Below are positions 2,717 through 19,246 of a DNA stretch of 64,000 nucleotides, piece by piece. Origin of the DNA: a virus; IMG/VR virus record IMGVR_UViG_3300025141_000029, positions 62,001 through 126,000 of that record. One strand, given 5' to 3'. Each line of letters starts with the position of its first letter. Positions within the stretch are counted from its first letter, which is position 1. The notes under the pieces were generated by a model, which was not told where the DNA came from, ran no database searches, and worked only from the letters and a program-made list of their open reading frames with translations. The translations under genes and the position numbers were made by a program.

Positions 2717-3127
2717 TTAGATTAAATCTTTCCACTTACCATTAGCAATATTCATGATTCCCGATATATCAACGCCCGCATCGTGGGGAGAAACTCCAGA
2801 TAATGCCGTATGTTGATTGCTTTCCGGAATAACCTCTTGCGTGCCTTCAAATACATCTACGCCGCCGAAAGACATTGTTTCATTTAATCTCTTGATTTTT
2901 TCTTGTCTTTGTTTTTCGAGCGCGGCAGCCTTTTTCTGCAACTCTTCTGAATCTGGAGCACTTTTATTACTTCGAACAGTCAGGCTCTCAGTAATAATTT
3001 GTTGATTGGCCATTCCTTTAGCGACTTCTGTAATGATTCCAGATAGTACGCCCTTTTCGAAGATACATTCTTTAATACATTCTTCGATAAGGGGCTTTAA
3101 GATCTTTTTAAGTTCACTTCTTTTCAT
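2717..3127 (-). CDS. Small head-cluster protein with N-terminal helix and C-terminal WK motif
   Basis: A 136-residue protein of no recognised family. The N-terminus, MKRSELKKILKPLIEECIKE, is an amphipathic helix distantly like the MKITK-type leader of the cargo-like proteins (an LIEE string occurs at about residues 13-16). A charged helix follows at about residues 60-85 (EELQKKAAALEKQRQEK). The C-terminus, NGKWKDLI, resembles the RWKILAG tail of its two head-cluster neighbours. The gene is 3 bases downstream of the ParB-like gene and close to bS21, in the same co-directional run. An internal or scaffold-associated head protein is the best guess. Confidence 0.5.
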   Translation of the reverse strand: MKRSELKKILKPLIEECIKECIFEKGVLSGIITEVAKGMANQQIITESLTVRSNKSAPDSEELQKKAAALEKQRQEKIKRLNETMSFGGVDVFEGTQEVIPESNQHTALSGVSPHDAGVDISGIMNIANGKWKDLI

Positions 3128-3129
3128 TG

Positions 3130-4218
3130 TTAGCCCGCTAATATCTTCCAGCGTTTATAAATTTTTGATTCGGTGAGCGCTCGTTCTTCTTCTGGCTCGT
3201 CACCACCAGCAGCGCTGGTATCCCCAGTTGTAAAAGGTCCAGCATAATTCACACCGCCGGCCTTCAAAGCAGCCGCAACTTTATCGGGAGTAGCACCAGG
3301 ATTAACTTCCGGATCTGCTTGTGGCATTTTTGTTCTAGAGGGGGCCCCTTCAACTTGTGAAGCAGCAGTTTTTTTAATCGCATTTTTAGCATATGCCTCG
3401 GCATAATCAACCCCTTTCTCTACCTCTTTAATACCCTTTATTTTCATGAGGGCAGCAACATAGGGTGCCACACCTTTAGGATCTGGCTGAAGTGTTTGTG
3501 GGTTGACTTTTCTTTCTGACGCGCCTAAATACTGTCGAATCTGGCCCGCTCCATCGGTAAATAAATTGCCTCCCTTTGCCTTTTTTGTATCAGCTTGGCC
3601 GGCGACAGCATATATTCCCAAATGTAGCGCCTGGAGCATGTCATCAGAAGATAAATCTGTCTTAAATCCAACTGTATTGATTTTTCCGTTTGGGTTGATC
3701 ATCATGGCTTGTGACCAACGATGATGTCCGTCTAGTACAACATTTCCATCAGAGGTTTGAGCTATGATAATAGGATTTTTAAAGTCAAATACCGGTGATT
3801 TCTCGCGCATTTTTTCAATTAACCAATTGACATCTCCCCAGTCAATACCATCCCATGCCATTCCATCAATTCCTGCCATTGTGTTTCTTAAAGATTGGGC
3901 AGCTCCGACTTCATTTTGTGACGCCTTGAGATTTGAGAACGGAACAATGCCGCCGCCGGCGGCTTGGACTGCCATATCATCTCGTTCTGTGCCATCCTTC
4001 TGGCCCTTATCGATCAATTCTTTAGCAGCATCAGATAAGCCAGCAATCGGTGGAACTGGCAAGCTTCTCAAAGGTTTTCTCATCCAAGCATCCAGCTCTT
4101 TTCCAAGTGCAGCCTGATGTCTTAAACCTCCTCGTGCTCTGGGAGCCAACGGACGTTCATTTAAAATTTGAAGATCTTTAACTAATTCTTTTAATTTTGT
4201 CTTCATAATTTTCATCAT
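3130..4218 (-). CDS. ParB/Srx-like-fold protein of the head cluster, with RWKILAG tail
   Basis: A 362-residue protein. Residues about 145-180 contain NPIIIAQTSDGNVVLDGHHR followed by WSQAMM, the hallmark of the ParB N-terminal/sulfiredoxin-like fold (the GxHR nucleotide-binding motif, here GHHR). Proteins with this fold bind nucleotides or act as nucleases or regulators. No DNA-binding helix-turn-helix domain like that of chromosomal ParB is evident. The C-terminal third is Ala/Pro/Gly-rich and ends ESKIYKRWKILAG, the same tail as the scaffold-like protein. The N-terminus (MMKIMKTKLKELVKDL) is helical. It lies between gp21-region genes and bS21, so it is probably packaged in or assembled with the prohead. 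The ParB-like call is fairly firm; the function is unknown. Confidence 0.7.
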   Translation of the reverse strand: MMKIMKTKLKELVKDLQILNERPLAPRARGGLRHQAALGKELDAWMRKPLRSLPVPPIAGLSDAAKELIDKGQKDGTERDDMAVQAAGGGIVPFSNLKASQNEVGAAQSLRNTMAGIDGMAWDGIDWGDVNWLIEKMREKSPVFDFKNPIIIAQTSDGNVVLDGHHRWSQAMMINPNGKINTVGFKTDLSSDDMLQALHLGIYAVAGQADTKKAKGGNLFTDGAGQIRQYLGASERKVNPQTLQPDPKGVAPYVAALMKIKGIKEVEKGVDYAEAYAKNAIKKTAASQVEGAPSRTKMPQADPEVNPGATPDKVAAALKAGGVNYAGPFTTGDTSAAGGDEPEEERALTESKIYKRWKILAG

Positions 4219-4680
4219 TTAGTTTCCTGATCTTACAATTTTTTTAATTTCATCTTCGATCATATTCCTTAAAGACTCTTTGGTGAGTTTTTTATTCTCA
4301 TCCCAGCGAAACTTTCGTTCTTTCCTTCGGGTCTTTTTTTCTGGCTCGTATAAACTGCCTAAACGACTTTGTCTACTAAGACCAGAAGCACCGTACTTTG
4401 GGGTGCCTCGCGCAGATTTCGATTCCCAACCATAGCGCTCCTTTTCCATCTCTTTTTGTGAAAAATCGCCTAGGCCACCCTCTTCAAGTTCTTCGCCTTC
4501 TTCAGGCTCTTTGTCGCGTTTCATCGGCAGATCTGTCGACCCGGGGTCACCAGAGTGCGGCGTCTCGGTCGACGGGGCCGGCTTGGGACCCGGGTCGATG
4601 GGCATGCCGTTGCCGATTTCGTCAAGCTTTGCTATTTCTTCTCTGATGATTTGCTGTAAATGTTCTCTTGTTACTTTCAT
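4219..4680 (-). CDS. Predicted internal head (cargo) protein with capsid-targeting leader
   Basis: A 153-residue charged protein beginning MKVTREHLQQIIREEIAKL, the same leader type as the four tandem proteins at 17631-18912. The leader holds IIRE before E, an (I/L)-x-E site like those cut by T4-type prohead protease; the protease gene is immediately upstream at 4686-5330. Residues about 24-52 form a Pro/Gly/Asp linker encoded by a GC-rich patch (about 4530-4610). The remainder is Lys/Arg/Glu-rich without a recognised domain, and near the C-terminus ESLRNMIEDEIKKIV partly echoes the leader. I infer an internal protein delivered to the prohead; the mature function is unknown. Confidence 0.6.
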   Translation of the reverse strand: MKVTREHLQQIIREEIAKLDEIGNGMPIDPGPKPAPSTETPHSGDPGSTDLPMKRDKEPEEGEELEEGGLGDFSQKEMEKERYGWESKSARGTPKYGASGLSRQSRLGSLYEPEKKTRRKERKFRWDENKKLTKESLRNMIEDEIKKIVRSGN

Positions 4681-4685
4681 ATTTC

Positions 4686-5330
4686 TTAATCCTTTAAGAT
4701 ATCTTGAATAAGATTATCCAAGCTCGTTTTTTCTTTATTTTCATTTAAATAAGAATTAATGCCCGCATCTATTTGTGGAGTCGAAATAGAAATAGCGCCC
4801 CCTGATTTTAAATAGGCTCCAGGTGTCGAAGGTTCCGAAACGATATCAAAACAAATTAATTGAAAATCATCTTCAACCATTACATAACCCTGTGATTCCT
4901 TTACAGTTCCAAGGCCTCGGGAAGAAATACCCAGCTTTACGCCGGCTTTAATTAAATCCTTGAGAATACGACCGGAAGGTGTGCCAAGTACTTCAATCTT
5001 TCCCATAACATTGTCACCATCCCACCACATTTTTGCTACAATGTGCGCAGCATTCTTAAGATTAATAACACTATCATCTGGATGATCTAACTCTCCAAGT
5101 GATCTTCTTTCTCTAATTGCTTTTTGATAGTTTTCAACTTCTCTCTGCAGGGTTTCTTTTTTATAAATCCTGCCATTGCCATTTTTTGTGCCAGCTTTTT
5201 GACACACTCCCACAAGATAAACTGCTCCATCATTGGCAACGCGCTTTCTTTCCGATTCTGTTAAGATATCAAAAGCACATTGTCCATCAGGACAAAGTTC
5301 AAAGTATTCTTGTAAAAGCTGTTTTGACAT
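4686..5330 (-). CDS. 21: Prohead core protease, gp21-like
   Basis: A 214-residue serine protease of the T4 gp21 family (herpesvirus assemblin-like fold), which matures the prohead by cutting scaffold, internal proteins and capsid propeptides. The conserved LGELDHPDD stretch supplies the catalytic histidine at about residue 83, and LGISSRGLGTV at about residues 133-143 supplies the catalytic serine. AGTKNGNGRIY near residue 46 is also typical of the family. Length agrees with T4 gp21 (212 aa). The gene is preceded by a 47-residue gene 4 bases upstream and followed by a predicted substrate. No strong Shine-Dalgarno is visible, so translation may be coupled to the upstream gene. Confidence 0.93.
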   Translation of the reverse strand: MSKQLLQEYFELCPDGQCAFDILTESERKRVANDGAVYLVGVCQKAGTKNGNGRIYKKETLQREVENYQKAIRERRSLGELDHPDDSVINLKNAAHIVAKMWWDGDNVMGKIEVLGTPSGRILKDLIKAGVKLGISSRGLGTVKESQGYVMVEDDFQLICFDIVSEPSTPGAYLKSGGAISISTPQIDAGINSYLNENKEKTSLDNLIQDILKD

Positions 5331-6453: not shown

Positions 6454-7270
6454 TGGTTGAAATCTCTTTTGTTAGTTGTTGTATTTTTAACACTTTCTCT
6501 AGAATATTTCTATTAATTTTCTTTTTTGAAAAAGAATTTAAAACATCTATTATCTGATTTTTTTTATCCAAAATCAATGGGCTATTATTGCCTTCTGTTA
6601 TATTAAGCAAATCTTTCTTTAATCTTGCAATTTCTTCATTTAAGAATACTTTGAATTCTAAATCATCTGTTTCACAAGAAGAAACATAATGTTTAATTAA
6701 ATCTTTTTGCTCTTGGAGCAATACATCTTCATATGTTTCATTAAATTTATTATAAAAAGTTTTAAATGCTAGCTTGCTTGTCGGCTTATATTTTTGTTTT
6801 TTAAGAATTTCGGAAGAAGCCTGGATCCTTTCTAGTATACAATCTTCTAATTTAATCTGCTCTTTCACGCTTACATTTTCGTGTAACACTTGATACGCAG
6901 TTGCCAGACTTTTATATTCAGAAATAAAATGTTCGAAAATATCTTTTCCTAAATCCTTATTAATTTTTTTTATCAATTTTGTCTGAGCATTAAAGATATC
7001 TTTTCTATTCAGACTTTGATGACGGATTTTCGTCTCATGTAAGACCTTATTAGCAAATTCATTATTCAAGTCAGCGGTCGACGTTAAGTTTTTGTAAAGC
7101 TCTAGTTCAGTATTTAAAATACTTTTTTTATTAAAAAATTCTTTTAAGATTTTAATAATTGTTTTTTTGCGAGATTCATCGGCCTTCAATGAAACAACTG
7201 TTAATTCGCGTACAAGAATTTCAAATAAAAACGCTGTATTTCTTTTTTTATTATGTTTATGTTTCGTCAT
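6443..7270 (-). CDS. Helical head-block protein, unknown
   Basis: A 275-residue, Lys/Glu/Asn-rich, almost entirely alpha-helical protein with no membrane segment. The basic N-terminus (MTKHKHNKKRNTAFLFEIL) is followed by long amphipathic helices. It follows the portal gene with a 14-base overlap and precedes another unknown, so all three are probably co-translated. By position it could be a head-assembly or portal-associated factor. No sequence motif supports a specific T4 counterpart. Confidence 0.45.
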   Translation of the reverse strand: MTKHKHNKKRNTAFLFEILVRELTVVSLKADESRKKTIIKILKEFFNKKSILNTELELYKNLTSTADLNNEFANKVLHETKIRHQSLNRKDIFNAQTKLIKKINKDLGKDIFEHFISEYKSLATAYQVLHENVSVKEQIKLEDCILERIQASSEILKKQKYKPTSKLAFKTFYNKFNETYEDVLLQEQKDLIKHYVSSCETDDLEFKVFLNEEIARLKKDLLNITEGNNSPLILDKKNQIIDVLNSFSKKKINRNILEKVLKIQQLTKEISTNVN

Positions 7271-9212
7271 ACTTCGACTCCAGAAGCGCTATTAGATTTT
7301 TGATATCGGTGTTGGTCTCAAATAATTTTCTCTCTTCATCATTATAAGTAGAATCAAGATTTTCAGTAACACCATGCGCAAGACGATTAATTTCTATTCC
7401 AGGAAACATCTTTCTTCTCGAAGAACCTTTGTGCTCATCAGCCCAAAGACCTTTCATGTGTCTTTTTCGGGCGCCCATATCTCTTCTATCACCGCCTTTA
7501 TTAGATCGCGGCTCATACCATCCGTGAGATTTCGAGGTTGTAGTATACGTTTTGCCATTTTCTTTTTTAACATCACGCTTCGGAGCAGCTAAGAGCGCGC
7601 TTTCCTCCTCACCGCCGGCCTCTTCGCCGGCGGGTTCTTCGGCGGCGGCTTCTTCGCCACCAAATTCTTCACCACCAAACTCTTCACCACCAAACTCTTC
7701 ACCGCCAAATTCTTCACCGCCGCCTAGGCCGGCCATGCCGCCTTCGACACCTTCGGCTGTTACATCTTCTGCTGCTTTTTCTAGATCAGCAACCAATCTC
7801 TTGTCATGGAACATCTCTCTTTGAATTCTAGACATCTCTTCTGCCGAGACATTGAATATGTGTTCCGCAAGCCAGCGCTTACTGAAAAAGCCTTCTGTGG
7901 CCCCAGACGCAACTTCAAACTTAGTTCGCCAATGTTCTAATTCCTGAAGTTGTGCTAATTTAGAAGGATTGTTTAAACGAAGTTTAAAAGAAGTTAGATC
8001 TTTACCACGATATCCTCTTGTAAACAAATGTACAACTGCTATCTTTTCTAACTCTGAAATAACTGATCGTTGTAAGCGCTGTACTGTTCTGGCAAACCTA
8101 ATATCTTTTTGTGCTAAAGTTGTTTTATCTTCATCGGCCCCCTCAGAATTTGTTAGATAAGAGGGTGGAATTTTAAGTGCGCTGAATAATTTATCTCTAA
8201 GATATTTAACATCATCAATGTCGCCAGTAAATGTACCTCCAGGCAAACTTTCAACCTTTGTTGATTCTCCGCCCCTTACAGGAATAAAATAATCTTCTTC
8301 GATTGACATCGGGTTATAACGTAGGTCGACGCGGCCGCTATCAGCATTGACTATTTGATTTCTTTTCATTTGTGTCATAACACGCTGTACATATTGTTCA
8401 ACATCCTGTGGGGGGATATTACCTACATCAATATAAAAAACTCTTCTTTCAGGCGATCTTACAATGCGATATGCCATCATAGCATCTTCCAAAAGTGTTA
8501 ACTGGCGCCAAACTCTACGAGCAGGCTCCAGAACTGATGTTCCATATGGAGCATATTTATCATTTCCTAAAATTCTAAAATGTGCAACCTGCCAATTTTC
8601 TAATGTAAGGCCGGCTGAATTCCATTGGTATTGAACATATTTGGGATTATCTTCATCTTCCCCCTCTAAACGTTCCACTTCTTGTGAAGGAAGTCCAATG
8701 GCATACTGGATTCCGTCTTTTTCGTCTATATCCAAATATAGAAAAAAATCACCAAATTTACAAAGAGACCTGGCCCATCCAAAAATATTAAATTCAATAT
8801 TTAAAATATTGTGATATAAATTTTCTAATTCTATTTTAATTTCTTCATCGTGAGTTACTATATTTAATAGTGGTGTTAATTCAGTTGAAGTTGTAATTTC
8901 ATCTGCATAAATATCCAAGGCAGAAGCAATCTCGGGCATATATTCCATTTGGTCAAAATCAATATATCGATCAGTTCGATTTTGATTAGACATAAAGTTT
9001 GCTGCAAAGTTACCCTTTTGCCCATATTCTGTTTTTTTAAATGTTTGGCCGCTGGCAGACTTAAACGTATTGGCATAATTGTCTAAATGTAATCGTCGAG
9101 GATGTCTCGTAGTTTGCTGTCTATACGTCGTTAAGGGACCAGATAAAAGCTTGGTTAACTTTCTAAATAATCCATGTTGTGGATTTCTTGGATTTGTATT
9201 TCTATTAGCCAT
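7257..9212 (-). CDS. 20: Portal vertex protein, gp20-like
   Basis: The 651-residue portal protein, which forms the dodecameric ring at the packaging vertex and initiates prohead assembly. Family features include DRYIDFDQMEYMPEIASALD near residues 81-100, YGTSVLEPARRVWRQL near 225-240, and RSPERRVFYIDVGNIPP near 255-271. Length exceeds T4 gp20 (524 aa) because of a C-terminal extension. Part of this extension is a (GGEEF)n repeat at about residues 500-520, followed by an Ala/Glu-rich stretch and a basic tail. The repeat comes from a 15-bp DNA repeat. The gene lies directly after the large terminase, so gp18 and gp19, which sit between them in T4, are absent here. Confidence 0.95.
   Translation of the reverse strand: MANRNTNPRNPQHGLFRKLTKLLSGPLTTYRQQTTRHPRRLHLDNYANTFKSASGQTFKKTEYGQKGNFAANFMSNQNRTDRYIDFDQMEYMPEIASALDIYADEITTSTELTPLLNIVTHDEEIKIELENLYHNILNIEFNIFGWARSLCKFGDFFLYLDIDEKDGIQYAIGLPSQEVERLEGEDEDNPKYVQYQWNSAGLTLENWQVAHFRILGNDKYAPYGTSVLEPARRVWRQLTLLEDAMMAYRIVRSPERRVFYIDVGNIPPQDVEQYVQRVMTQMKRNQIVNADSGRVDLRYNPMSIEEDYFIPVRGGESTKVESLPGGTFTGDIDDVKYLRDKLFSALKIPPSYLTNSEGADEDKTTLAQKDIRFARTVQRLQRSVISELEKIAVVHLFTRGYRGKDLTSFKLRLNNPSKLAQLQELEHWRTKFEVASGATEGFFSKRWLAEHIFNVSAEEMSRIQREMFHDKRLVADLEKAAEDVTAEGVEGGMAGLGGGEEFGGEEFGGEEFGGEEFGGEEAAAEEPAGEEAGGEEESALLAAPKRDVKKENGKTYTTTSKSHGWYEPRSNKGGDRRDMGARKRHMKGLWADEHKGSSRRKMFPGIEINRLAHGVTENLDSTYNDEERKLFETNTDIKNLIALLESKYDET
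7651..7725 (-). repeat. 15-bp tandem repeat in the portal gene (GGEEF repeat)
   Basis: Five head-to-tail 15-base units on the plus strand of the type TCTTCACCACCAAAC, with a few synonymous differences. They encode GGEEF units in the portal C-terminal extension. The last unit is diverged. Such an in-frame repeat can expand or contract by slippage, so copy number may vary between related phages. Confidence 0.9.
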
Positions 9213-9220
9213 CTATATAA

Positions 9221-10795
9221 TTATCCTTTCAGCAACCAAACATGATCAGCATAATTTTGTTTTTCATCATCTTTCTTAACATATTTATGGCCACGCATAC
9301 CTGGAACTGTAGTGTTGATAATTGTATCAGATTTTTTCATACAGTTTAAGAAAGCTTTTTTATATTCCATGTCCCTTTGATTTACCTCAAACGCAATATC
9401 TTTAACCCAACAACCAATCGCAAAAGCCATAACCAGGTCATCATTATATCCGCGCATTGCTTGCGGCTTGCTATTGTGCCAAATAAATGTCTTCATTTCA
9501 TTATAGGTTCTTATTGAATACATCGTAATTAGTTTATTTCTAATGAATTCTTCCAACTTGGCGATAACCAGGGGACGTGTTTTTGAAGTCATCGAAAATC
9601 CCATAACGGCATTGTTGGCTCTTTCGCCAATCAGAGGGTCAACATATTCATGACTAGATTTATATGAGTAAAATATATTTGGATAACTAAATTCTTGAAG
9701 TTTATCAAGAACTGTCCAGCCAACTGTGTTGTTTTCGACAACAACCATACAGTTGCCATATTCCTTTCCAACTTCATTTAACATATTGGCAAATAAATCT
9801 GGCGTCGCTTTTCCCTGATATTCTCCAACAATTTCCATCGTTTCAATTTTAAATATTAAAAATGTTGAATAATCTTTGCCGTCTCCGCGGGCCACATCTG
9901 CAGATAAAAGATACGTTGAATCTGGCTGATACTTCTCCCAAACCCAAAAATTACGATCAAAGCCAGTTTTATATTCTGGTTCTCGTAGGCCACCCTCAAT
10001 AATTTTCATATCATCTGCGTGAAAAACAGTTTCGCCAGACATATTAAAACTACATTCTAGCTCCTGTGCTATTTGACGTCGTGACATATTTTTGGTCTCA
10101 TTTTCAAACCAACCTTGATCACGATCTGGATGAACATCCCACTTTAAAGATGTCAAATAAAAATCATTATTTTCTTGTTCGGCATCAACACAAGTTTGGT
10201 GAAACCAGTTACCTACACCATTTGGTGTGGACAAGGCGATACAGCGTCCTCCAGTAGATAAAGTAGGATATAAGCCGGTCCACAATTCTCCAAGACCTTC
10301 AATATGTGCGGCCTCGTCAATTACAAGTAGCGATAATGCTTCTGAGCGGCCGGCGTCTGTTGATGTTGAGGTGGCTTTGATTTGTGAGCCGTTTGTTAAT
10401 TCGAAAGAAGTCCTATTGTCAATTGATATTTCAGAAATGCGAAGCCAATCTGGTAGATTTTTATGAATCGCTTTAACTTTTTTAACAAGATTTGAAGCAG
10501 TCTTAAACTGTGTCGCAATAACAAGAACGTTCTTTTCTTTATGGAAAAGCATTATCCAGGCAACGTAAGCAGCAGTGATTGTTGAAATGCCAAGCTGGCG
10601 CGCTTTTAAAATTACATTAAAGCGATAATCAGTAAAGTCTCTAACTAGTTGCGTCTGAAAATCATAAGTGTTAAAGGGTATTAAGCCGTGTTGTGGGTGT
10701 GATATCCTAGCATAACTATTAATAAAGTATACAGGATCTTTACCAGATTTTACAATTTCTTTTAAAATCTGGTCTCTGGTGGGTTTGTAGGGCAC
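9221..10795 (-). CDS. 17: Terminase large subunit, gp17-like
   Basis: A 524-residue packaging ATPase-nuclease. The N-terminal ATPase has a Walker A-type KARQLGIST at about residues 64-72 (compare SRQLGKTT in T4), Walker B LLVIDEA at 156-162, and the coupling motif STPNG at 189-193. The C-terminal RNase H-type nuclease starts with LLSADVARGDGKDYSTF (first Asp near residue 300), with VVVENN (about 351) and YNDDLVMAFAIG (near 467) giving the later acidic positions. It is shorter than T4 gp17 (610 aa) but complete. It overlaps the upstream unknown gene by one base and lies 8 bases before the portal gene. Confidence 0.96.
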   Translation of the reverse strand: MPYKPTRDQILKEIVKSGKDPVYFINSYARISHPQHGLIPFNTYDFQTQLVRDFTDYRFNVILKARQLGISTITAAYVAWIMLFHKEKNVLVIATQFKTASNLVKKVKAIHKNLPDWLRISEISIDNRTSFELTNGSQIKATSTSTDAGRSEALSLLVIDEAAHIEGLGELWTGLYPTLSTGGRCIALSTPNGVGNWFHQTCVDAEQENNDFYLTSLKWDVHPDRDQGWFENETKNMSRRQIAQELECSFNMSGETVFHADDMKIIEGGLREPEYKTGFDRNFWVWEKYQPDSTYLLSADVARGDGKDYSTFLIFKIETMEIVGEYQGKATPDLFANMLNEVGKEYGNCMVVVENNTVGWTVLDKLQEFSYPNIFYSYKSSHEYVDPLIGERANNAVMGFSMTSKTRPLVIAKLEEFIRNKLITMYSIRTYNEMKTFIWHNSKPQAMRGYNDDLVMAFAIGCWVKDIAFEVNQRDMEYKKAFLNCMKKSDTIINTTVPGMRGHKYVKKDDEKQNYADHVWLLKG

Positions 10796-17080: not shown

Positions 17081-17581
17081 CTAACGCTTATCGTCTTTGT
17101 CAAGGGAATTCGATCGCGATATAATGAACGGATGGCTCGGTTTTCTATCTTGATATTTAACTCGCGTGCCGACGACTCGATCAACCCACTCTGTTGTAAT
17201 TCCCCAATTGGCATCTTGATCTTTTCCCATATGATGATCGTGGTGCCAGGGTACTTTTTTCTTTGCCCATTCTGGATCTAAATGAGATTTCTTATGAACA
17301 TAATAGTATCTAAAAGCACCTGCTAAAACTCCAACATAAAATACAGCTGATACAAAGAGGATAGGTAAGTGTAATATTATTAAAAATATCAAACCACTTT
17401 TCTCTCTGCTCGTTGATTCGTTCCACCCTTTCTTCTTGTAATCATCATCATAGAAATCATTTTGTCTAGATTTTTTATGATGTATGTGCCGGCGCGAAGA
17501 CCAGCTGCTTTTTTTATTTTTACCTAAACCATGTAAAATATATCTATGTAAAATCCATTCTAATAAATTAGTGTACAACAA
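17081..17581 (-). CDS. Fatty-acid hydroxylase/sterol desaturase superfamily enzyme (possible damaged start)
   Basis: A 166-residue frame from a TTG at 17581. It has the histidine clusters of di-iron membrane hydroxylases: HRYILH at about residues 12-17, HIHH near 32-35, and HHDHHMG near 113-119. Hydrophobic segments lie between the first and last clusters (LIFLIILHLPILFVSAVFYV). It ends WGITTEWVDRVVGT, usual for the family. The in-frame DNA upstream, without stop back to 17634, encodes IVVELIFYASTFALGLL, which completes a first membrane helix. An ATG at 17629-17631 overlapping the previous stop (TAATG) is one base out of frame. One extra G in ATGGG would join them, so the true gene may start at 17631. 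An auxiliary lipid- or carotenoid-modifying role is inferred. Confidence 0.75.
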   Translation of the reverse strand: MLYTNLLEWILHRYILHGLGKNKKSSWSSRRHIHHKKSRQNDFYDDDYKKKGWNESTSREKSGLIFLIILHLPILFVSAVFYVGVLAGAFRYYYVHKKSHLDPEWAKKKVPWHHDHHMGKDQDANWGITTEWVDRVVGTRVKYQDRKPSHPFIISRSNSLDKDDKR

Positions 17582-17630: not shown

Positions 17631-17876
17631 TTACGTTGTTAAATCCTCAAAAATTTTATTCATCTCTTGTTGTAGAGTTTTTGCTAACTCTTTATCATCA
17701 TTATTGATAGCTTCAAAATAATATTCACCTAATTTTTCAAAACGTTCTTTCAAAAGTTTTTTTAAATTTGGATTATTATTTTCAATCAAAACAGTACGAT
17801 TTGCTTCTTCTAAAATATGATATCGCTGAATTTCTTCATTAATAATTTGATTTAATTTTTGTTTAGTAATCTTCAT
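17631..17876 (-). CDS. Predicted internal head (cargo) protein with capsid-targeting leader (4 of 4 in tandem)
   Basis: An 81-residue acidic helical protein starting MKITKQKLNQIINEEIQRY. The leader has the IINE-E site expected for gp21-type cleavage and is shared with the three genes upstream and with 4219-4680. The rest (about residues 20-81) is helical without a known domain: NPNLKKLLKERFEKLGEYYF, then a Glu/Asp-rich helix. An AGGAGAATAAT ribosome site precedes the ATG. Its stop forms TAATG with the putative original start of the hydroxylase gene. The cargo role is inferred from the shared leader. Confidence 0.6.
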   Translation of the reverse strand: MKITKQKLNQIINEEIQRYHILEEANRTVLIENNNPNLKKLLKERFEKLGEYYFEAINNDDKELAKTLQQEMNKIFEDLTT

Positions 17877-17885
17877 ATTATTCTC

Positions 17886-18308
17886 CTATTCATCAAAAGC
17901 TGTCATCGCTTGACCAATTTCTGTCATAAGAACACCAGGCTGAAGCAAAAATTTAAGCTGCTCAATTACAAGTTTTGTAGCAGGATTATCTGATGGTGAA
18001 GTCATAGTTTGAAGTTCTTCTCCAGCGGCTATAAACATCTTTCTGGCCTCGTCTCTGCCCATATCATCAGCCAATTTATATGCATCACTAACCAAAGAGG
18101 CCATCGAAGAGCTTAAAACCTCGGAACCTTGCTGAACTCTATTTCGATGAGTTTCCTCTTCAGCAGTGGGGCCTTCATATTCTGGGCGTCCCTTCTTCCA
18201 ATCTGTACCTGGACTGTGATGCGGATCTAGAGACATCCGCTCGCCTTCTTTAACCAATGCTAGCTCTTCTTTAATAATTTGTTTTAATTGTGATTTTGTA
18301 ATTTTCAT
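17886..18308 (-). CDS. Predicted internal head (cargo) protein with capsid-targeting leader (3 of 4)
   Basis: A 140-residue protein with leader MKITKSQLKQIIKEELALV and an IIKE-E site. After the leader comes a charged, Pro/His-rich linker (about residues 24-55, SLDPHHSPGTDWKKGRP). A helical domain (about 60-138) follows, with SMASLVSDAYKLADDMGRD and a hydrophobic C-terminal helix. No known domain. An AAAGGAGACAT ribosome site precedes the start. It lies in the tandem of leader-bearing genes downstream of the tmRNA. Payload function unknown; delivery into the head, and then perhaps the host, is inferred from the leader. Confidence 0.6.
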   Translation of the reverse strand: MKITKSQLKQIIKEELALVKEGERMSLDPHHSPGTDWKKGRPEYEGPTAEEETHRNRVQQGSEVLSSSMASLVSDAYKLADDMGRDEARKMFIAAGEELQTMTSPSDNPATKLVIEQLKFLLQPGVLMTEIGQAMTAFDE

Positions 18309-18322
18309 GGCATATGTCTCCT

Positions 18323-18652
18323 TTATGCGCCTAAATCTGCGGATGCATCATGATGCTGCTCTTCTAGTTCATCAGCCATATCACGAAGTGCCTCTGCTCG
18401 ATCCAGATCAGAACGCGTTGAACGGCCGATTAGTTGATCGATAAGTTTTATTTTACCCGATCGAATGAAGTCGTCATGTGAGCTTCGCGCCCGACTTCTA
18501 GAATCATCAACAACTTTGTCCAAAGGATCGGGTGGCCCACCTTTTCCTTGGCGGTGGTGAAAAGCATCTGATGATATATCTTTGACCCATTCTTCAGTCA
18601 TACTTAACTCTTCTTTAATAATTTGTCTTAATTGTTCTTTTGTAATTTTCAT
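18323..18652 (-). CDS. Predicted internal head (cargo) protein with capsid-targeting leader (2 of 4)
   Basis: A 109-residue protein starting at the ATG at 18652, which overlaps the previous stop as ATGA. The frame is open further upstream, but that would add non-homologous residues before the conserved leader MKITKEQLRQIIKEELSM, so the inner start is chosen. After the IIKE-E site the protein is charged and mostly helical (DDFIRSGKIKLIDQLIGRST, then RAEALRDMADELEEQHHD). No membrane segment or known domain. Function unknown beyond the predicted head targeting. Confidence 0.6.
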   Translation of the reverse strand: MKITKEQLRQIIKEELSMTEEWVKDISSDAFHHRQGKGGPPDPLDKVVDDSRSRARSSHDDFIRSGKIKLIDQLIGRSTRSDLDRAEALRDMADELEEQHHDASADLGA

Positions 18653-18912
18653 AGGCCAAAAACTCCGTGATCTTCCATACATTTAAGATATGCCGGATCT
18701 TTACGATTGCGGCCTACACCACGGCACTTGCACTCTGCCCACATCCAGAGACCCTGATCATCGCCAGGCGGTACGCCACAAGGATCTGTTTCTGCAGCTG
18801 CCATAGAAGCTTCTTTTTCCCACCATGCTGCGTCTTCTGGGGAAATTTCTTTTAGTACTGCCGAAAATTCCTCTTTAATAATCTCTCTTAATCGTTGCTT
18901 TGTAATCTTCAT
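18649..18912 (-). CDS. Predicted internal head (cargo) protein with capsid-targeting leader, Cys-containing (1 of 4)
   Basis: An 87-residue protein with leader MKITKQRLREIIKEEFSAV. The remainder is unusual for the group in having four cysteines (DPCG, ECKCRG and LKCMED) and several tryptophans (AAWWEKE, LWMWAE), so it may bind metal or form a small disulfide-type fold. It ends DHGVFGL. The gene starts 24 bases downstream of the mature tmRNA 3' end, with AGAGGAT as ribosome site, so both may come from one primary transcript. Payload function unknown. Confidence 0.6.
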   Translation of the reverse strand: MKITKQRLREIIKEEFSAVLKEISPEDAAWWEKEASMAAAETDPCGVPPGDDQGLWMWAECKCRGVGRNRKDPAYLKCMEDHGVFGL

Positions 18913-18936: not shown

Positions 18937-19246
18937 TGGTGGAAGTGCCGGGAGTCGAACCCGGGTCCTAAATATTTCCAACATATTGTCGTTCACAAGG
19001 TTAGTCAGTTTATGAACTCTGACAAACTTAAACGCACCGCGCACCATCAGTTTTTTAAAGAAACTGAAAACTCTATTTTGTAGTCTTGGTTAACAAGGCG
19101 ACTACAACCCCGTGATTACGCCGCTAGGGCGTATTCAAAGTCAACGTTATCGTTGGCGTTTAAAAGTTTGAGTGTTTTTACTGTGCCGCACTCACACAGC
19201 CTTGCACATTATATTTTCAATATTCAGTCGATACCAGTTCACCCCC
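18937..19246 (-). ncRNA. ssrA: Transfer-messenger RNA (tmRNA), tag ANDNVDFEYALAA
   Basis: A complete one-piece tmRNA of about 310 nt. The 5' end GGGGGUGAACUGGUAUCGAC pairs through GGGGGUG with CACUUCC near the 3' end, including the G3-U pair that marks alanyl acceptors, and CCA is encoded. The T-arm reads CCGGG-TTCGACT-CCCGG. The tag frame starts at the resume codon GCC (19155-19157) and ends in TAA at 19116-19118, encoding ANDNVDFEYALAA with the usual proteolysis-type ALAA end. tmRNA rescues stalled ribosomes together with SmpB, not seen here. The 5' end overlaps the primase stop region by 8 bases, so the RNA must be processed from or transcribed within that gene. Confidence 0.96.

Follow-up and report, generated by a model that had tools for sequence, protein, structure and literature searches.

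Why should four neighboring small genes of an uncultured, marine-type phage encode proteins that begin alike and then have nothing more in common? The window analyzed here, a stretch of 64,000 nucleotides corresponding to bases 62,001-126,000 of a 157,733-bp virus record, raises this question between positions 17631 and 18912. An earlier note had drawn attention to these genes and proposed that their products are packaged in the capsid, processed there, and perhaps injected at infection. We favor a similar answer, with a probability of about 0.8. The shared N-terminus would be a capsid-targeting propeptide on five (probably six) genes of the window and on hundreds in related phages; it would be cut off, with the bodies borne in the head and delivered. 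The packaging, cutting and injection of the bodies, as well as roles in host takeover or anti-defence, are what we infer from sequence.

The leader genes of the window

The entire record was scanned for the leader pattern, and exactly five ORFs, all on the minus strand, start with MKITKxxLxxIIxEE; the reversed genome gave no match. Four stand in tandem below a tmRNA gene (18937-19246, minus strand, tag ANDNVDFEYALAA), which bounds the cargo cassette on its upstream side, and the fifth lies in the head operon. The tandem genes, the fifth ORF with its variant leader and the tmRNA upstream were all described correctly in the earlier note. A leader PSSM applied to 1054 ATG-started ORFs gave 33.7-51.6 for these five, then 0.0 for a ParB-like protein and -8.2 for the next ORF.

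Leader protein 1 (18649-18912, minus; 87 aa, Cys-rich body) begins MKITKQRLREIIKEE; its leader, MKITKQRLREIIKEEFSAVLKE, occupies 18912-18847 and has a good predicted cut, VLKE|I, after residue 22. Leader protein 2 (18323-18652, minus; 109 aa) begins MKITKEQLRQIIKEE, and its start codon shares the sequence ATGA with the stop codon of leader protein 1. The leader ATG is at 18652 in a frame whose longer ORF begins at 18682, and the leader (18652-18593) offers only MTE|E after residue 20, a weak candidate, besides IKE at 14. Leader protein 3 (17886-18308, minus; 140 aa) begins MKITKSQLKQIIKEE, with the leader at 18308-18246 and a weak candidate cut, LVKE|G, after residue 21, which may be compared with IVSE|A in the capsid protein (MCP) of Flavobacterium phage immuto. 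No homologue of this protein was found in the phage genomes searched, and its single-sequence structure model was poor (pLDDT 53).

Leader protein 4 (17631-17876, minus; 81 aa) begins MKITKQKLNQIINEE and is the sole cargo of the window conserved in relatives. Its leader (17876-17805) ends in a good site, LEE|A, in which L22 and E24 are invariant across five orthologues, with E, Q or R at residue 23. The AlphaFold model consists of the leader helix, a low-confidence segment at about residues 21-30, and then a confident helical hairpin. Leader protein 5 (4219-4680, minus; 153 aa) has the variant leader MKVTREHLQQIIREE with a good predicted cut, KLDE|I, after residue 21, and a second copy of the motif, LTKESLRNMIEDEIKKI, at its C-terminus. 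The neighboring ParB-like protein (3130-4218, minus; weak phrog_1033 match, E 0.0032), whose N-terminus reads MKIMKTKLKELVKDLQILNE|R from an ATG at 4215, is probably a sixth, diverged leader carrier.

The earlier note had called the bodies of these proteins unrelated, and blastp at E 1e-3 indeed detects no similarity among them; comparison with Pfam and PHROGs returned no convincing function. Directly 3' of the cassette lies a fatty-acid-hydroxylase/sterol-desaturase gene (17081-17581, minus; PF04116, E 1.3e-10), which is unusual in a phage.

The leader in related phages

The exact codon pattern of MKITKxxLxxIIxEE has at least 120 matches in IMG/VR viral contigs. The same codons in scrambled order have none in 2.9 million contigs, and neither has the pattern read backwards, so that a chance motif can be rejected. 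Once the pattern was relaxed to residues 2-13, 343 non-redundant leaders were obtained (0 in reversed sequence). The tag thus stands on hundreds of different proteins of related phages, with up to seven leader genes per locus and up to 14 exact-pattern matches in each of the large viral records. A listing of the bodies fused to the leader, suggested in the earlier note, shows how diverse they are: 341 compared bodies form about 291 clusters, 274 of them singletons, in a set already thinned of near-duplicates, which favors singletons. One shared full-length family, which the earlier note had named as a finding that would refute its proposal, was rejected. After dereplication by body, 218 proteins remain; they agree closely over residues 1-16 and hardly at all beyond 22-23.

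Bacterial and archaeal genome contigs amounting to 257 Gb contain only 11 leader stretches, all in MAGs. The two most copy-rich of these genomes carry a Peptidase_S77 gene, suggesting binned phage DNA, and the leader as a bacterial feature was rejected. The 305-kb contig C5 of a Methylococcaceae-labelled MAG (NHDW01000006.1; loci L318, L323 and L325), with 22 leader genes and an S77 protease, is probably a misbinned phage.

Among cultured relatives, the strict pattern has no match, and a tblastn search of cultured phages with an artificial double leader of 44 residues gave just a weak match in an uncultured phage. Variant leaders surfaced in immuto only when an N-terminal offset of -2 was allowed. 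They are found on gp094 (MKKSQLRQIIKEAL), gp095 (MKKSQLREIIRKEL) and gp080 (MKKSELVKLIKEEL), with no match in the reversed control. The gp080 leader reads MKKSQLRQIIKE and is followed by ALDAS past the predicted cut, while the genes of gp094 and gp095 lie at least some 1.1 kb upstream of the primase. In LR756508, an uncultured phage of 484 kb, at least 10 leader variants occur, e.g., MRLSERKLRRIVKEEISRVLRE|D. The MCP of the window phage matches those of immuto, Mel-JY01 and RM378, consistent with the uncultured Far-T4 phages (PMC4360716) as the nearest described group. A search of the leader against PDB sequences returned nothing significant, and the literature searched contained neither a description of it nor virion proteomics of a carrier.

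The head operon and the variable cargo slot

The head operon runs on the minus strand in the order terminase (9221-10795), portal (7257-9212), p275, p189, a DUF1360 protein, Peptidase_S77 (4686-5330), leader protein 5, the ParB-like protein, p136 (2717-3127), an S21-like protein, p203, a scaffold-like protein (366-1784) and the MCP (1-348). S77 is the family of T4 gp21, and the window member is identified as a gp21-type prohead protease by PF03420 (E 4.8e-32; 111.5 bits, which passes the curated cut-off of 27) and phrog_207 (E 3.9e-58). We propose it as the leader-processing enzyme. The gene for leader protein 5 lies immediately downstream of it, between protease and scaffold/capsid genes. The putative scaffold/core protein is gp22-like by its position and its acidic, coiled composition, contains 17 [LI]xE motifs against 10.4 expected, and is proposed as the docking partner of the leader. 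The small protein p136 is conserved in 13 of 18 head operons. With 8 such motifs against 2.6 expected, it is by analogy a candidate core protein that would be shredded like T4 gp67 and gp68; a similarity between its N-terminus and the leader was tested and found unsupported.

Two further features of this operon were observed. The ribosomal protein S21-like gene (2474-2707, minus; phrog_21469, E 6e-5) recurs in 11 of 18 related head operons and in Mel-JY01. The scaffold-like and ParB-like proteins have a common C-terminal tail, RWKILAG, and the scaffolds of immuto and Mel-JY01 end in RWQKLAGIIK and RMKKLAGIVK, respectively; such a tail is possibly a second, C-terminal tag for head loading or coat binding.

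Beyond the window, S77 was found in 28 of 35 leader records of at least 55 kb, compared with 2 of 12 control records picked by a random 14-mer (records were hand-counted from tables). Five of the seven S77-negative leader records lack a portal, and in a sixth the portal is 2 kb from the contig end on the protease side; S77 was undetectable in the portal-bearing leader record G005. Where the head module is present, S77 therefore accompanies the leader in 28 of 29 large records. This co-occurrence partly reflects common ancestry, the carriers being related phages, and is an association rather than independent evidence. In 12 of 18 records, leader genes are located inside the TerL-portal-S77-scaffold-MCP operon or next to it.

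The second location, beside the primase and tmRNA, is hypervariable: primases are 85-92% identical, yet the leader-gene sets differ, and protein 4 is the member of the slot that close relatives share most frequently. The tmRNA adjoins the primase in L134 and L136-L140 and is absent in more distant relatives. Two rearranged genes were also noted. A C-terminal domain that is 89% identical in L136:9972-10607 and L137:10287-10685 follows the leader directly in one phage, whereas about 77 additional residues intervene in the other, as if cargo had been shuffled behind the leader. In L122:1675-2943, a 422-aa leader protein has a second full leader, FNESQLKQIIKEELEAALSE, in mid-protein, as if two tandem cargo genes had been fused.

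Known-family matches are few among the 130 leader proteins scanned, and many of the PHROGs are of unknown function. Those recognized include pentapeptide repeats (L030:3606-4229, E 4e-32), sigma-70 region 2 (L119:2121-3272, E 9e-11) and a GNAT acetyltransferase (L030:4676-5431, E 2e-8), and by these domains some cargo bodies are predicted regulators or modifiers. A PADLOC scan of the same 130 proteins gave no convincing defence match (best E 0.004).

The location of leader genes in the head operon lends itself to a different interpretation, namely that the leader is cut but the bodies are structural accessories of the core or scaffold, which aid assembly and are then degraded or expelled, never injected. 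T4 gp67 and gp68 are accessory proteins of this core type (PMC9026906), the proteins of the scaffold region are rich in [LI]xE, and many leader-borne bodies are short, acidic or helical. Essential core proteins would not, however, be expected to be so diverse and so hypervariable among close relatives, to carry sigma, GNAT or pentapeptide domains, or to reach 22 leader copies on one contig, and we consider this interpretation unlikely.

The predicted cleavage site

In T4, gp21 cleaves head proteins after L/I-X-E (PMC9026906). The gp23-like MCP of the window, of which the N-terminal part is encoded at 1-348 (the gene continues beyond the window), has its cleavage region at QLLKE|ASS, and the statement in the earlier note that the capsid protein has LLKE before ASS is correct. 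Across 21 related MCPs, the site keeps an invariant E after a hydrophobic P3 and is in register with FLTE|A of T4 gp23; immuto has IVSE|A and Mel-JY01 LISE|A.

The leaders have a core I-x-E at residue 14, and further [LI]xE motifs are enriched with P1 at 21-22. With P1 at 19-24, such a motif is present in 109 of 218 leaders, against 25±4.5 after shuffling. The two positions of the motif vary together in these 218 leaders, both for L/I/M20 and E22 (odds ratio 16.6, p 5e-19) and for L/I/M19 and E21 (odds ratio 5.7, p 1e-7), whereas off-register L/E pairs are uncoupled; a one-residue shift of helix register could be an alternative source of this co-movement. The commonest P1' residues are G, A and S. 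The coupling was replicated, with an odds ratio of 17.8 (p 2e-5), in 62 independent leaders from loci reached via the primase or S77 protease and not via the leader; 42 of them have the site, compared with 14±3.

The residue that follows the core separates two forms of the leader. A downstream site is present in 192 of 291 leaders with E15 and in only 5 of 23 with A15, which read ..IIKE-A (p 5e-5, or 0.002 when the comparison is kept to the same loci). This exclusion is expected if every leader needs one usable gp21-type cut and is unexpected from an amphipathic helix alone. About one third of the E15 leaders are without a downstream [LIM]xE. The earlier note had placed the cut at the I-x-E of the leader, and this prediction stands for the minority ..IIKE-A class, which looks to be cut at residue 14. 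It is not upheld for the ..EE majority, in which a second [LIMV]-x-E at residues ~20-24 is the better site for the predicted cut.

These patterns bear on a further possibility, that the leader is an uncut helix for targeting or binding (an encapsulation-peptide design, a host docking motif or a degron) with no part in head processing. In favor of this, a short amphipathic helix precedes a distinct body in the leader proteins, and encapsulation peptides are likewise short helices fused via disordered linkers (PMC12339742). The floating L-x-E, the E15/A15 switch, the match to the MCP site and the association of leader genes with S77 and head genes would all be left unexplained, which makes an uncut helix improbable.

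At synonymous positions the leader is hardly more restricted than the bodies, so that the constraint acts on the peptide and not on the DNA, and a DNA repeat or recombination site is disfavored. Although the genes are tandem, short and swapped among related phages, ordinary paralogy, a recombination repeat or a translation-initiation bias, with a peptide that has no role, is hardly credible given this synonymous variation, a leader that persists over 291 body clusters, and scrambled and reversed patterns without a match.

A capsid-targeting propeptide remains the reading we prefer because the leader is conserved while the body is free, a cleavage signature is present and resembles the MCP site, leader genes are linked to S77 and to the head operon, the primase slot is variable, and some bodies resemble regulators or modifiers. 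At its core, an interchangeable leader that loads diverse cargo into the capsid and is processed by a protease, the proposal of the earlier note is strongly supported by sequence statistics, genomic context and comparison. The amphipathic-helix leader of ~14-24 residues would dock the precursor on the prohead scaffold or core. The gp21-type S77 protease would then cut it at [L/I/V]-x-E during maturation, at ~20-24 in the E15 form and at 14 in the A15 form, and the freed bodies would stay in the head with the DNA and enter the host at infection.

Comparison with known systems

The closest parallel is found in T4, where IPI, IPII and IPIII (and Alt) also have a short N-terminal leader on unrelated small bodies, a capsid-targeting sequence that gp21 removes. 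Both systems combine L/I-x-E sites, predicted in the case of the window phages, with an S77 protease. T4 likewise has two leader lengths, MKTYQEFIAE|A (10 aa) in IPII and IPIII and an apparent ITE|A at 19 in IPI. The ip loci are variable too, and some adjoin stable-RNA genes, a tRNA cluster in T4 and the tmRNA in the window phage. Ip1-3 have only the leader in common and inhibit different GmrSD restriction enzymes (PMC12373910), an example of what a system of this type can achieve. The differences begin with the leader sequence itself, which is unrelated (MKITKxQLKQIIKEE, 14-24 aa). There are also far more cargo genes here, with up to 14 exact-pattern matches per viral record and 22 in one MAG contig, and the window-type cargo, in a system known from sequence alone, includes proteins with sigma, GNAT and pentapeptide domains.

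The leader pattern has no match in T4, a flexible PSSM found no T4 internal protein, and the leader and the T4 CTS, MKTYQEFIAE, have only MK and [IL]xE in common. As a positive control, a generic detector of shared N-termini recovered T4 ipII and ipIII. Judged by sequence, the leader system appears to work like the T4 internal proteins, with descent from the T4 leader unsupported; since no homology to that leader was found, we class the system as T4-like in its working rather than as a member by descent.

The leader may resemble the N-terminus of PduD. Bacterial microcompartment encapsulation peptides are, similarly, short amphipathic helix tags that a flexible linker connects to unrelated cargo (PMC12339742), but they serve cellular organelles and are uncut by a phage protease, and the search of PDB sequences revealed no homology to the leader. 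The ejection proteins of SPN3US/phiKZ-type giant phages are head proteins with cleaved propeptides, as predicted for the window phage, and the paralogs gp53 and gp54 have an identical 15-residue N-terminus (PMC5694885). Their processing differs, with cuts at A-x-E or S-x-E and propeptides mostly longer than 100 residues, compared with S77, [LIV]-x-E and ~22 residues here.

With somewhat less assurance than for the propeptide itself, we lean towards a second, separately recognizable capsid cargo code in a large group of uncultured T4-related phages. One leader with two cleavage forms (~14 and ~22) would load each virion with interchangeable proteins, from a few to more than 20, and a sigma factor and an acetyltransferase would be among them.

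Significance

What is known of proteins that phages inject comes largely from T4 and a few giant phages, usually via proteomics. The leader-tagged proteins of related phages are candidate members of this group. With the variant leader on three of its proteins, the cultured Flavobacterium phage immuto makes the idea directly testable, and the leader would offer a short tag for loading a foreign protein into such capsids. If the propeptide reading is true, a peptide signature would single out, among the 'hypothetical proteins' of environmental T4-related phages, hundreds to thousands of candidate injected effectors or anti-defence factors. If the two-form cargo code is true as well, a single signature would yield a catalogue in which thousands of injected proteins could be searched.
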